This document shows positions 23,955 to 27,339 of a stretch of 64,000 bases of DNA, piece after piece; positions within the stretch are counted from its first letter, which is position 1, and every line of letters begins with the position of its first letter. The DNA is taken from contig NZ_FONW01000018.1 of NCBI RefSeq assembly GCF_900113005.1, forward strand, positions 1-64,000, written 5' to 3'. The DNA is from Sunxiuqinia elliptica. GTDB taxonomy: Bacteria; Bacteroidota; Bacteroidia; Bacteroidales; Prolixibacteraceae. Under the pieces are notes generated by a model that ran no database searches, had not been told where the DNA came from, and saw only the letters and a list, made by a program, of their open reading frames with translations. The position numbers and the translations under genes were made by a program.

Positions 23955-25460
23955 TTAGAGTTTTATGATGACAGGATCGGAAACGGGGCTTTCATTTTGA
24001 AGCCGGTCAAGTGCCGATACCCTGAATTCGTAGGCTATTTTATTCGGTGTTTTTCGGAGTTCAAGACGTGTGTCCTCAGTGATTCGATAAATAAAATGAG
24101 GATCATCCGCATCGAATGTTTCTCCGACTTTGTTTCGGTAGACAATGTAGCGAACCGCTTTGTCCAGCTCCTGCTCGGCCTTTTGTGGTTTCCATTTCAG
24201 AACTTTTCCCCAGCCCTTTTTTACTTTGCGTAGGTTGGCGGGAGCTTGGTTGTCTATCCAGGGCATTGGTGGAACCAAAGCCGGGTAAGCATACAATTGG
24301 TTCGAAAGTGTGTCTTGAAATCCGATGATATCGCGTGAGAAATGTTTGGCACTGTAGAATGCACTACCGCCAATTTCTTTGATTTTCCGGGTTATGCGGA
24401 TTTGGTTAGGTAACTGACTGGCTTGTCGCCATTCAACAATATTCGATGTCGGATCGCTTTTATAAACTCCATGGCCAATATACATAGCTCTGTCGTAGGC
24501 GTGATCTTTCCACCAGTTGGATAAAGTCAAAAAATCCACTGCCGGGTGTCCAATTTGCCAGTATAATTGCGGAAGCATGTAATCAATCCAGCCTTTTTCG
24601 AGCCACAAAATAACATCGGCATACAAATGGTCGTAGTTGGTATTTCCGGCCGTTGTTTTTGAGCCACGTGGGTCATCAGCAATATTGCGCCATACGCCAA
24701 AAGGACTAATGCCAAACTTCACCCAAGGCTTTACTGACTTGATGGATTGACTCAATTGCTGGATCGTTTTATTGACATTCTCACGTCGCCAGTCAGTAAT
24801 TTCGGCTTTCGAGAAGTTACCGTGGTACTTTTCAAAAGAAGTGGAATCCGGAAATGCCTCGCCAATAATTGGGTAGGGATAAAAATAATCATCAAAGTGA
24901 ATAGCATCTACATCGTAGCGCCGGACAACGTCGACAACCACATCGGTAATAAACTGGCGGGCTTCGGGTAGTCCCGGATCAAAATAAAGTGAGTTGCCAT
25001 ACTTGAGTACCCACTCAGGATGCCTAAAGGCGATATGATTGGCGGCTAAGGGTTCATCGTATTTTAGCGCAACGCGATAGGGATTAAACCACGCATGAAA
25101 TTCCATATTTCGTTTGTGGCATTCCTGAACCCAAAATTGTAGTGGATCGTAGCCTGGATCTTCTCCAGGGGTGCCAGTGAGGTACCGAGACCAAGGTTCA
25201 AGTTCGGACGGATAGAATGCATCAGCAGTCGGACGCATCTGAAAAATGACAGCATTCATTCCCAGCTGCTGCAACTTATTCAGTAAGATGATCGCCTCCT
25301 GCTGCTGTCTTCCGGCACTCAATCCGGGTTTTGAAGGCCAATCGATATTGGCAACCGTGGCCACCCAGCTTGCCCGGAATTCTCTTTTAGGACTGACTTG
25401 AGAAAAGCCAGTAAAGGATAAAAAAAGCAATAAGAATACTAGCCCAATTGTGGTACGCAT
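23955..25460 (-). CDS. Exported GHL10-family glycoside hydrolase (DigH-like)
   Basis: A 501-residue protein: signal peptide MRTTIGLVFLLLFLSFTGFSQ, a GHL10 (former DUF187) TIM barrel of about residues 25-340, and a fibronectin-III-like C-terminal domain (about 400-501). Barrel landmarks are FRASWVATVANIDWPSKPGL, AVIFQMRPTADAFYPS, FHAWFNPYRVAL, VDAIHFDDYFYPYP (acidic catalytic-side residues) and KFGISPFGVWRN. The Escherichia coli member DigH (YddW) cleaves peptide-free peptidoglycan glycan strands. As first gene of the group with SpoIID-like and AmpG genes it fits wall-glycan turnover in the periplasm or outer membrane. Part of its upstream region is shared with the small-RNA unit. Confidence 0.87.
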   Translation of the reverse strand: MRTTIGLVFLLLFLSFTGFSQVSPKREFRASWVATVANIDWPSKPGLSAGRQQQEAIILLNKLQQLGMNAVIFQMRPTADAFYPSELEPWSRYLTGTPGEDPGYDPLQFWVQECHKRNMEFHAWFNPYRVALKYDEPLAANHIAFRHPEWVLKYGNSLYFDPGLPEARQFITDVVVDVVRRYDVDAIHFDDYFYPYPIIGEAFPDSTSFEKYHGNFSKAEITDWRRENVNKTIQQLSQSIKSVKPWVKFGISPFGVWRNIADDPRGSKTTAGNTNYDHLYADVILWLEKGWIDYMLPQLYWQIGHPAVDFLTLSNWWKDHAYDRAMYIGHGVYKSDPTSNIVEWRQASQLPNQIRITRKIKEIGGSAFYSAKHFSRDIIGFQDTLSNQLYAYPALVPPMPWIDNQAPANLRKVKKGWGKVLKWKPQKAEQELDKAVRYIVYRNKVGETFDADDPHFIYRITEDTRLELRKTPNKIAYEFRVSALDRLQNESPVSDPVIIKL

Positions 25461-25829
25461 AGAAAATAGGTTTTATATGTCATTAGTCGAAGGTATAAAA
25501 ATAGGCTTATTCTCTAAAATTAAATAATCAATCGATCATGAATTTGTATGGCAACATTTTTTGTGTTACGGAGTGTGTTTTTAAGGTGTTGTTAATTAGA
25601 ATATTGTGTTTGTTTTATTTTTCTTGAAGAAAATTTTGAAATCAAATATTTTGTATCTGTAATACCAATTGTGGAGGTGTTCCATATTGAAGAGGACAGA
25701 ATGACTGATTTGCTATAAATATGAAATCGATTGAAAAAATGCAAAGGGTATTCTGGGGGAGATCGCTTGGAGCCTTGGTTTAATGTTGGCTAAGTCCTGC
25801 AAAGCTAGGTCTTAGAATTAGAAAATATC

Positions 25830-25862
25830 TTTGCAATTCTCTTGTTTTTTTTGATATCTTTG
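25830..25862 (+). promoter_or_regulatory. Promoter of small-RNA unit
   Basis: TTTG (25830-25833), 21 bases, then TATCTTTG (25855-25862), an exact -7 box. A second TATCTTTG at 25826-25833 overlaps the -33 element. No protein-coding gene with a recognisable start follows within 380 bases. Confidence 0.72.
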
Positions 25863-25867
25863 AAGCG

Positions 25868-26056
25868 AAATCGAATGTGCCTGTTGTTGCTTTTGCATAT
25901 GGCAGGTATATTAGTAGCAAACTGGGAGTTAGCTGTTTTAAACAGTACACCACAATTTCCAGTAGGCTCATGGTTTATTAGGTTTAGTTGGTTTAGGTTA
26001 GTTCCCCGAGAGATCGGGGCGGAAAAGGCAGTCAGAGGACTGCCTTTTTGTTTTTT
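25868..26056 (+). ncRNA. Candidate structured small RNA, about 190 nt
   Basis: A transcript would run from just after the consensus promoter to a strong terminator. Visible structure: CCTG (25880-25883) with CAGG (25903-25906) around a TTTT-capped stem; ACTGGGA (25921-25927) with TTTCCAGT (25956-25963), enclosing CTGTT/AACAG (25933-25945); then three GGTTTA units at exact 9-base spacing (25972, 25981, 25990) in an apparently unpaired stretch; then two terminal hairpins. A 75-codon frame overlaps but crosses the terminator and looks accidental. Size and lack of coding content would fit 6S-type RNAs of Bacteroidota, but I cannot confirm that family. No pairing of the 5' and 3' ends typical of 6S is obvious. 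Confidence 0.55.
26004..26056 (+). terminator. Double-hairpin terminator of small-RNA unit
   Basis: CCCCGA (26004-26009) with TCGGGG (26014-26019), then AAAAGGCAGTC (26023-26033) with GACTGCCTTTT (26038-26048), followed by TTTTTGTTTTTT to 26056. Confidence 0.92.
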
Positions 26057-26244
26057 AGGAATAAGTTAAGGAACTTTTGAAGCCTTGAGAAATATTTTAG
26101 TTTCATCCGGATTATTTTCCTTCCTTTGGGAAGAGATGCTTCCCGGAAAGGGTATTTTGAGGAAGAATTTCCAGGTTTTTAAAAGAGCAATTTATTTAGT
26201 TATTTTGCATGCATTACGAAAATATTATTAACTAACTACTGATA

Positions 26245-27339
26245 ATGAAAGAAGACAAGCTTACTCAAATAGCCGGTCAGTTTATTGATATCGAACAAGT
26301 GGACCGGGTATCTCCGTTAGGGGAAGGTTTTATCAACGACACGTTTTTAATTTATCCTAAAGCCGAGGGACAAAGTAAATTACTCCTTCAGCGGAAGAAT
26401 AAAAATATCTTCATTAATATTCCTGCCATGATGGAGAATATTAATTTGGTAACCAAACACCTGAAAACCAAAATTAAGGCACAGGGTGGCGATCCGGAAC
26501 GGGAAGTACTGACGTTGGTGACTGCAAAAGATGGCAAGTTTTATTATATGGATGAAGCAGATGACTATTGGACTGCTTGTTTATTCATTGAGCCACACCA
26601 GGTGATTGAGACCGTTGATAATTCATCAATTGCTTATTCCGGAGGAAAAGGTGTTGGTCGTTTTCAAGCGATGTTGGCCGATTTTGAAGGTGAGTTGACC
26701 GATATTCTCCCTGGATTCCATGATATTAAATTCCGTTTTGATCAATGGGATAAAGTATTGGCTGAAGACCGTGTTGGCCGGAAAGCTGAAGTTTTGGAAG
26801 AAATTGAGTGGATTGAAAGCCGCCGTGCAGAAATGTTGGACTACTGGAAATTGGTTGAAGAAGGCCAGATTCCACGTCGTATTACGCACAACGATACCAA
26901 GATCAGCAACATTCTGTTTGACTTGGAAGGTGACGTGTTGTGTATGATTGACTTGGATACTGTTTCTCAGAGTCCTGCTTCGAATGACTTTGGCGATGCT
27001 ATTCGTTCCTACTCCAATACTGCTGTTGAGGATGAGCCAGACTTGTCAAAAGTATCGATGAATTTAGAGCGTTATCGTGAATTTACTCGTGGATATCTGG
27101 AAGAAGCCGGTTCTTTCCTGAATGAAAAAGAGCTGGAATACTTGCCATTTTCAGCAAAGTACATCACTTACGAACAAGTGTTGCGTTTCTTGATGGATTA
27201 TATTGATGGTGACCGTTATTATAAAACCAAATCAGAAGATCATAACTTGGTTCGTACGCGTAGCCAGTATAAATTACTGCAGAGCATGGAAGAACAATAT
27301 GCTGAAATGCAGCAACTGACAAAAGAATTTGTGTCGTAA
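26245..27339 (+). CDS. N-acetylhexosamine 1-kinase-like phosphotransferase (APH fold)
   Basis: A 364-residue cytoplasmic kinase of the aminoglycoside-phosphotransferase fold. The start SPLGEGFINDTFLI with LLLQRKNKNIFINIPAMMENI resembles the NahK branch (N-acetylhexosamine 1-kinases). The catalytic loop is RITHNDTKISNILFD (212-226; Asp217 catalytic) and the metal motif is MIDLDTV (Asp236, Asp238). NahK phosphorylates GlcNAc or GalNAc at C1; AmgK, of the same fold, does this for MurNAc. It diverges from the peptidoglycan-degrading operon across the small-RNA region, so GlcNAc or MurNAc from wall recycling is the likely substrate. A terminator follows 25 bp after the stop codon. Confidence 0.82.
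   Translation: MKEDKLTQIAGQFIDIEQVDRVSPLGEGFINDTFLIYPKAEGQSKLLLQRKNKNIFINIPAMMENINLVTKHLKTKIKAQGGDPEREVLTLVTAKDGKFYYMDEADDYWTACLFIEPHQVIETVDNSSIAYSGGKGVGRFQAMLADFEGELTDILPGFHDIKFRFDQWDKVLAEDRVGRKAEVLEEIEWIESRRAEMLDYWKLVEEGQIPRRITHNDTKISNILFDLEGDVLCMIDLDTVSQSPASNDFGDAIRSYSNTAVEDEPDLSKVSMNLERYREFTRGYLEEAGSFLNEKELEYLPFSAKYITYEQVLRFLMDYIDGDRYYKTKSEDHNLVRTRSQYKLLQSMEEQYAEMQQLTKEFVS

Follow-up and report, generated by a model that had tools for sequence, protein, structure and literature searches.

The window (the whole 64,000-nt stretch of Sunxiuqinia elliptica DNA that was analysed) is taken from a genome of 5.09 Mb in 26 contigs and carries a predicted small RNA unit next to a divergently oriented gene for a GHL10 protein (Table 1). 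The gene on the other side of the unit encodes an APH-type phosphotransferase. The features of the unit, together with related elements elsewhere in the genome, are given in the table.

Table 1. Features of the RNA locus (positions in the window) and its paralogs in the same genome (contig:position)
Feature	Position	Strand	Remarks
GHL10 (PF02638) protein, divergent neighbour	23955..25460	-	Conserved neighbour, outside the RNA
-33 element TTTG	25830..25833	+	Within the first TATCTTTG box (25826-25833); read from the sequence
-7 box TATCTTTG, Bacteroidota type	25855..25862	+	Invariant in 8/8 aligned sequences
Inferred transcript, about 185 nt	25868..26056	+	From promoter, fold and terminator; start inferred from the -7 box
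5' stem P1	25874..25912	+	Centroid fold; both-side changes at 2 pairs (8-sequence alignment)
5' stem P2, closing right before the array	25916..25968	+	Centroid fold; both-side changes at 4 pairs (8-sequence alignment of its own clade)
GGUUUA/GGUUAG array CATGGTTTATTAGGTTTAGTTGGTTTAGGTTAGTT	25969..26003	+	5' half CATGGTTTATTAGG, a possible anti-start seed; core TTAGGTTTAGTTGGTTTAGGTT
Hairpin 1, CCCCGA-GAGA-UCGGGG	26004..26019	+	Centroid fold
Intrinsic terminator, stem GAAAAGGCAGTC/GACTGCCTTTTT, loop AGAG, U run	26022..26056	+	Terminator prediction
Paralog C6	C6:222839		Short, own -7 box
Paralogs C7	C7:24959 and C7:25146		Tandem pair
Paralogs C10 and C9	C10:402190 and C9:89855		Placed right after stop codons

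Two TATCTTTG boxes precede the RNA. An earlier note on this DNA had described them as overlapping, but they are separate, with starts 29 nt apart. Because the first box keeps the TATCTTTG form in only one of seven other aligned sequences, the TTTG within it is best read as a -33 element, 21 nt before the -7 box, and this reading of the sequence agrees with the consensus promoter that the note had proposed. In 38 of 55 loci, the distance from the end of an exact TATCTTTG to the array is 68-141 nt; most of the others have a variant -7 box, and no -7 box was found in four.

The RNA (25866-26056) is predicted to fold with an energy of -65.5 kcal/mol (z -4.66), and none of 200 shuffles is equally stable. 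Across relatives, the predicted length of the RNA is roughly 125-226 nt. Two stem-loops follow the array, as had been described: hairpin 1 and the terminator (stem-loop 26022-26049, with a T run), the latter being the sole terminator predicted on either strand of 25400-26300. The covariance analysis of relatives that had been proposed as a check finds both-side changes in P1, P2, the terminator and a sister-clade hairpin. The terminator stem is paired in 99.7% of cells, with both-side changes at 3 of 11 pairs (35 sequences). Pairing reaches 98.5% in the sister-clade hairpin just 5' of the array, where 6 of 8 pairs show both-side changes (18 sequences, 17 of them distinct; 0/500 shuffles as high). 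Hairpin 1 differs between genera and is absent in 12 of 53 aligned sequences, mostly those of Draconibacterium and Maribellus. Conservation and covariation put the RNA unit far beyond chance.

With its conserved promoter, structure and terminator, the unit is very probably a real conserved RNA gene, as judged from sequence comparison. A short protein-coding gene in the overlapping 75-codon frame (25842-26069) has a negligible probability and is already contradicted: the frame is open in the window and two close relatives, but it starts upstream of the -7 box, ends beyond the terminator and is interrupted by stops in 5/7 relatives. The view that the unit contains no convincing open reading frame therefore holds, and the conservation of this frame that was to have counted against an RNA is not seen. 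The proposal of a 6S-type RNA fares little better. A length near 185 nt and a single copy would suit a 6S RNA, which has the shape of a long hairpin with a bubble, but the best conserved part here is a G/U-rich array. No Rfam family reaches its gathering score in the window, and the ten weak matches to 25500-26400 (E up to 10) include no 6S family, which makes an RNA polymerase-binding RNA of this type highly improbable. The Rfam families SraB, Ricks_sRNA10 and SurA have E-values of 0.002-0.007 with scores far below gathering, and are taken as chance matches to the A/T-rich terminator region.

Blast recovers almost the whole RNA in five of six same-genus relatives and two pieces of it in the sixth (G002); in other genera it matches the 3' part. 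An exact scan of genome contigs for GGYTTAWTAGGTTTAGTTGGTTTAGGTT gives 54 records with one match each. Those named by genus are mostly Sunxiuqinia, Maribellus, Mariniphaga, Draconibacterium, Tangfeifania, Gaoshiqia and Mangrovibacterium, and the remainder are MAGs, three of them oddly labelled Odoribacter, Chlorobiota and Chitinophaga. A covariance model of the 3' module (R1) was searched over 140 Prolixibacteraceae genomes and matches 133 of them at an E-value of 0.01 or better. Exactly one match of at least 69 bits is present in 73 of the 140, with the next score at 54.1 (hand count of rows). In G300 there is a further copy of the RNA, cut by the contig end. The plasmid search gave no match, and in viral contigs (IMG/VR) neither the array core nor the paralog string is found.

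Of 55 loci, 38 have a GHL10 homolog on the opposite strand within the first three ORFs upstream (a lower bound, as many loci are short), and in 29 of them it is the closest. The unit had been placed between divergent salvage genes; the upstream gene is indeed divergent and is the conserved neighbour, but the downstream gene encodes an APH-type phosphotransferase and downstream neighbours vary. This variation, some of it involving genes on the opposite strand, also counts against reading the unit as a cis-acting leader or attenuator for the gene downstream. Such an element would fit the same-strand APH-type gene that begins at 26245 with the terminator in between, but the conserved neighbour is the divergent one, and the leader reading is quite improbable. 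The conserved upstream GHL10 gene, the varying downstream genes and the single strong match per genome together point to one vertically kept, free-standing gene and not a leader. Conservation and covariation show the predicted transcript to be that of a free-standing non-coding RNA gene. A murQ homolog (NCBIfam match of one member) is upstream in 13 of 55 loci. In a Mariniphaga-type clade (L137, L145, L187 and others), the RNA gene has murQ and a second gene, which lacks a Pfam match in the member L187, close by on its upstream side, a hint that it may be connected with the recycling of cell-wall amino sugars.

The array comprises three GGTTTA copies, at exactly the positions first reported (25972, 25981 and 25990), then GGTTAG, and UAGG occurs in it twice. 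No part of the RNA is as well conserved as the core of the array, which the paralogs share; the 5' domain differs strongly between genera, but the core does not. Invariance of the array in alignments A1 (two identical segments dropped) and A3 (identical segments dropped, 35 remaining) is partly an effect of how the sequences were picked, since the 28-nt search pattern demands the array. The five lowest-scoring orthologs (L246-L250), which were fetched via a model search that did not demand the exact array, differ at its 5' end and have an unchanged core. The array had also been described as unpaired. It is mostly so in the window's own fold (predicted unpaired probability 0.63), but this is weakly supported across relatives: in 48 sequences, window included, the mean is 0.44 versus 0.36 for the rest of the RNA, and the array exceeds the rest in 32. 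In 30 of 35 distinct sequences, the triplet before GG (CAU 15, UGU 7, UAU 6, CGU 2; hand count) could base-pair with AUG when wobble is included, a count to be read with the facts that the same stretch also closes a stem and that the sequences are related.

Pattern and model searches find at least five further array-plus-terminator elements in the same genome (Table 1). The short paralogs read TTTNTTTCATAAGTTTAGGTTT.. close behind the -7 box and consist of two parts, a U-rich anti-start half (e.g. UUUUUUUUCAUAAG) and a GGUUUAG/GGUUAG part. This anatomy, judged by eye, is also present in nine of twenty lower-scoring members fetched from other genomes. Tandem pairs of FopS-like sRNA genes, spaced by 177-187 nt and with a -7 box for each gene, are seen at G000:C7:24929-25222 (L048, L049), L228 and L240.

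The closest published relatives are the FopS RNAs (RF04319), which are about 65-70 nt long, occur in 12-15 copies per Bacteroides genome and are described, from a BLAST search, as highly conserved within Bacteroidaceae (PMC11697453). The likeness consists of a Bacteroidota -7 box, a G/U-rich stretch of the form CAU-R-G-U..AUUAG-R-UUUA and then an intrinsic terminator with a similar stem. A search of 198 genomes of the order for the FopS seed consensus of PMC11697453, with up to three mismatches allowed, gave sites in 35 (reversed control: 0). The 31 seed sites in 30 fetched loci, inspected by eye, all have a hairpin downstream, and 30 of them (not L108) have a TAnnTTTG-like box just upstream. 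The RF04319 model finds all eight FopS loci and none of the six Prolixibacteraceae loci that it was given. The window is below its gathering cut-off (56 bits), with no match in 25500-26400 at E-values up to 10. None of the 140 Prolixibacteraceae genomes has a match over the cut-off, and 47 have one below it; the source genome has none. One sub-threshold match is an ortholog of the RNA (G294:C80:3586-3649, 33.3 bits).

In the other direction, R1 overlaps seven of the eight FopS loci given (13-25 bits), with five matches starting exactly at the TCAT of the seed and two 9-14 nt off. A second model (R2), made from 14 short Prolixibacteraceae paralogs only, matches the window at 39.4 bits and the held-out locus L233, which is outside the R2 pattern, at 60 bits. 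At 18-44 bits it also matches 29 of 30 FopS loci, all with a constant offset apart from one that deviates by 3 nt. On most FopS loci its scores (18-30 bits) are at the level of other matches in the search (up to about 32 bits); individually they are weak, and it is the constant offset that makes the kinship convincing. In the R2 alignments of two orthologs, CAU is not aligned to CAU. Comparison by these models therefore places the RNA, the short Prolixibacteraceae paralogs and FopS in what appears to be a broader FopS-like family, although individual FopS scores are weak. The RNA itself is probably a relative of FopS, and we conclude from the model searches that there is kinship with FopS but not membership of RF04319. 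Array-plus-terminator elements are also seen in other families of the order (L035 in G083 and L036 in G072, with R1 scores of 43 and 31 bits), and L037 (G033:C39:21929; 31.8 bits) has a GGTTTAGTT repeat array with no obvious terminator.

FopS starts just upstream of its U-rich anti-start seed, whereas the RNA studied here has a structured 5' domain and no U-rich half. Of the FopS R1' seed, the CATGGT..ATTAG-G-TTTA part is present, but stem P2 replaces the U-rich half (TTTTTCATRGTATTAG..). FopS is also short and multicopy, with a single-stranded 5' stretch, in contrast to about 185 nt, 5' stems and one strong match per genome here. These data support a divergent single-copy branch of a FopS-like family that has several members per Prolixibacteraceae genome.

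FopS and GibS repress mRNAs by pairing at start regions (PMC11697453, PMC7366714). Duplex energies were calculated for 30 of the 56 susC start regions of the genome and for upstream and downstream control stretches. Paralogs C6, C7 and C9 reach -20.3, -16.6 and -14.2 kcal/mol at susC starts, each 3.5-8.3 kcal/mol better than at controls, and none of 100 shuffled seeds does as well. For the FopS consensus, the values are -12.0 versus -9.5 and -10.1 (1/100 shuffles as low). No preference for these 30 susC starts is shown by C10, nor by the studied RNA (-14.1 at starts versus -14.7 upstream and -14.2 downstream). Although only 4/100 shuffled seeds are as low, susC targeting by the studied RNA is rejected because its energies are the same off target. 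At the C9 paralog (L051; G000:C9:89855), the array has its CAT at the stop codon of what looks, by eye, like a small heat-shock protein gene, and a terminator follows; given its better pairing at susC starts than at controls, this arrangement suggests a 3'UTR-derived FopS-like RNA.

Pairing was also assessed at 339 start regions from the window plus 400 kb of stretches of the one genome, called simply (first ATG, at least 120 codons) such that some starts are wrong. Exact complements of the array of at least 8 nt occur in 20 of the 339, compared to 8 upstream and 2 downstream, with no excess over shuffles (241/300 at least as high). The core likewise gives no excess of 8-mer complements (13 start regions; 215/300), while the 5' half of the array gives a weak one (11; 38/300). 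For C6, the 5' half is in clear excess (45; 10/300) and the 3' half is not (11; 253/300). As the FopS consensus also shows no excess (31; 122/300), this exact-complement test is insensitive. Duplex energies are more telling. The array averages -15.36 kcal/mol at the 339 start regions versus -13.95 for 60 shuffled seeds, none of which is as low, and shows no difference in coding control stretches (-15.41 versus -15.50; 38/60 shuffles). The bias is small, about 1.4 kcal/mol, and survives shuffling with 15 and with 60 shuffled seeds. The 5' half of the array has the same relative bias (start minus coding, 0/60 shuffles), as does a Draconibacterium array (1/60); the core has none (43/60).

Individual targets are less clear. 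A near-full complement of the array with up to three mismatches occurs only at the array itself and at C7:32572. With wobble there are seven sites, including the array, versus seven for a reversed-pattern control; of these sites, C19:118372 alone has an ATG at its end as well. The gene at C7:32572, which by eye resembles a lactonase gene, was dropped as a target, as it has no match at an E-value of 1e-60 in three of four other same-genus genomes searched and related genes do not conserve the site. A duplex of -30.1 kcal/mol over the start of a gene in L260 (5818-7158) is not claimed, because 4/30 shuffled seeds reach -30 somewhere. No convincing target was found among the candidates tried.

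Two small RRM proteins are encoded in the genome. The longer carries a tail of the RGG type and is related in sequence to many RRM domains of solved structure, P. gingivalis 7JLY among them. The RRM protein RbpB binds FopS and counteracts it (PMC11697453), and is reported to bind a GUAGGAUA probe in work cited as Adams 2021 (PMC12119571). UAGG was rejected as a general FopS-RbpB site, being present in 2/23 FopS sequences, and the UAGG/UUAG enrichment rests on 15 near-identical arrays, in effect one observation. The suggestion that the repeats may bind an RRM-family protein nevertheless looks like a good guess by analogy, as the 3' module is related to the RbpB ligand FopS and the genome has two such proteins.

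The best explanation, and a tentative one, is that the RNA is a divergent FopS-like RNA with changed targets, the core of which would dock an RRM protein. As the U-rich half is replaced by a structured 5' domain, the RNA would not be aimed at susC. Instead, the 5' half of the array (CAUGGUUUAUUAGG) may pair weakly with the start regions of another set of mRNAs and block their translation, and the GGUUUAG core would be the docking site of the RRM protein. By analogy with RbpB, docking by the core is an even question; pairing at start regions as the main role is slightly more doubtful than that.

The main rival, though a rather unlikely one, is that the array titrates protein, docking an RRM protein such that the main effect is on how much of it is free for FopS-like anti-susC RNAs and other ligands. 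The conserved core that is common to the paralogs and lacks start-region bias would fit such a role, as would the two RRM proteins, the precedent of RbpB (PMC11697453) and a single copy with its own structured domain. UAGG, however, is not a FopS feature, and titration alone does not need the start-region bias of the array 5' half; it is this energy bias that ranks pairing ahead of titration. It is improbable that the activity lies in the 5' domain, through ligand or protein binding, with the array only a stabilising 3' module, because that domain, for all its covarying stems, varies strongly between genera and the array core is constant. An unlikely further variant of titration is a 'counter-RNA' of the FopS-like network, present as one copy per genome, in which docking repeats without an anti-susC half take up or deliver the RRM protein. 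Through the many anti-susC RNAs under the control of that protein, the counter-RNA would set the gain of polysaccharide uptake. If true, such a scheme would amount to a Csr-like logic in Bacteroidota that relies on RRM proteins, and the variable 5' stems would act as its control point. CsrB/RsmZ-type RNAs titrate the protein CsrA with repeated short motifs; the titration reading resembles them in its repeats and differs in that the protein would be of the RRM family.

Among known RNAs, GibS of B. thetaiotaomicron offers a further comparison, made by description, in that it is a longer (145 nt) single RNA that shares the R1 seed of FopS (PMC7366714). GibS is GlcNAc-responsive, and orthologs of the studied RNA are near murQ in the 13 loci mentioned above. 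Most of GibS is without structure, its seed is at the 5' end and its promoter is of the PM2 type (PMC7366714), whereas the RNA studied here has stems first, the array last and a canonical -7 box.

These results add a further Bacteroidales family, with several members per genome, to the known range of FopS-like RNAs; no report of such RNAs in Prolixibacteraceae was found in the open-access literature searched. From their anatomy, these RNAs seem divisible into two modules: the GGUUUAG part, which the members seen have in common, and a U-rich anti-start half directed at susC. Bacteroides and the like are reported in PMC12119571 to be without Hfq, ProQ and CsrA. The studied RNA is a natural variant without the U-rich half; setting it beside the short paralogs addresses directly how targets change and to which part the RRM protein binds. 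A same-family genome (G037:C1:2455428-2457278) has five sub-threshold RF04319 matches within 2 kb on one strand, and the FopS seed string is present in 24 viral contigs (IMG/VR, L318-L341), in agreement with published phage occurrence.
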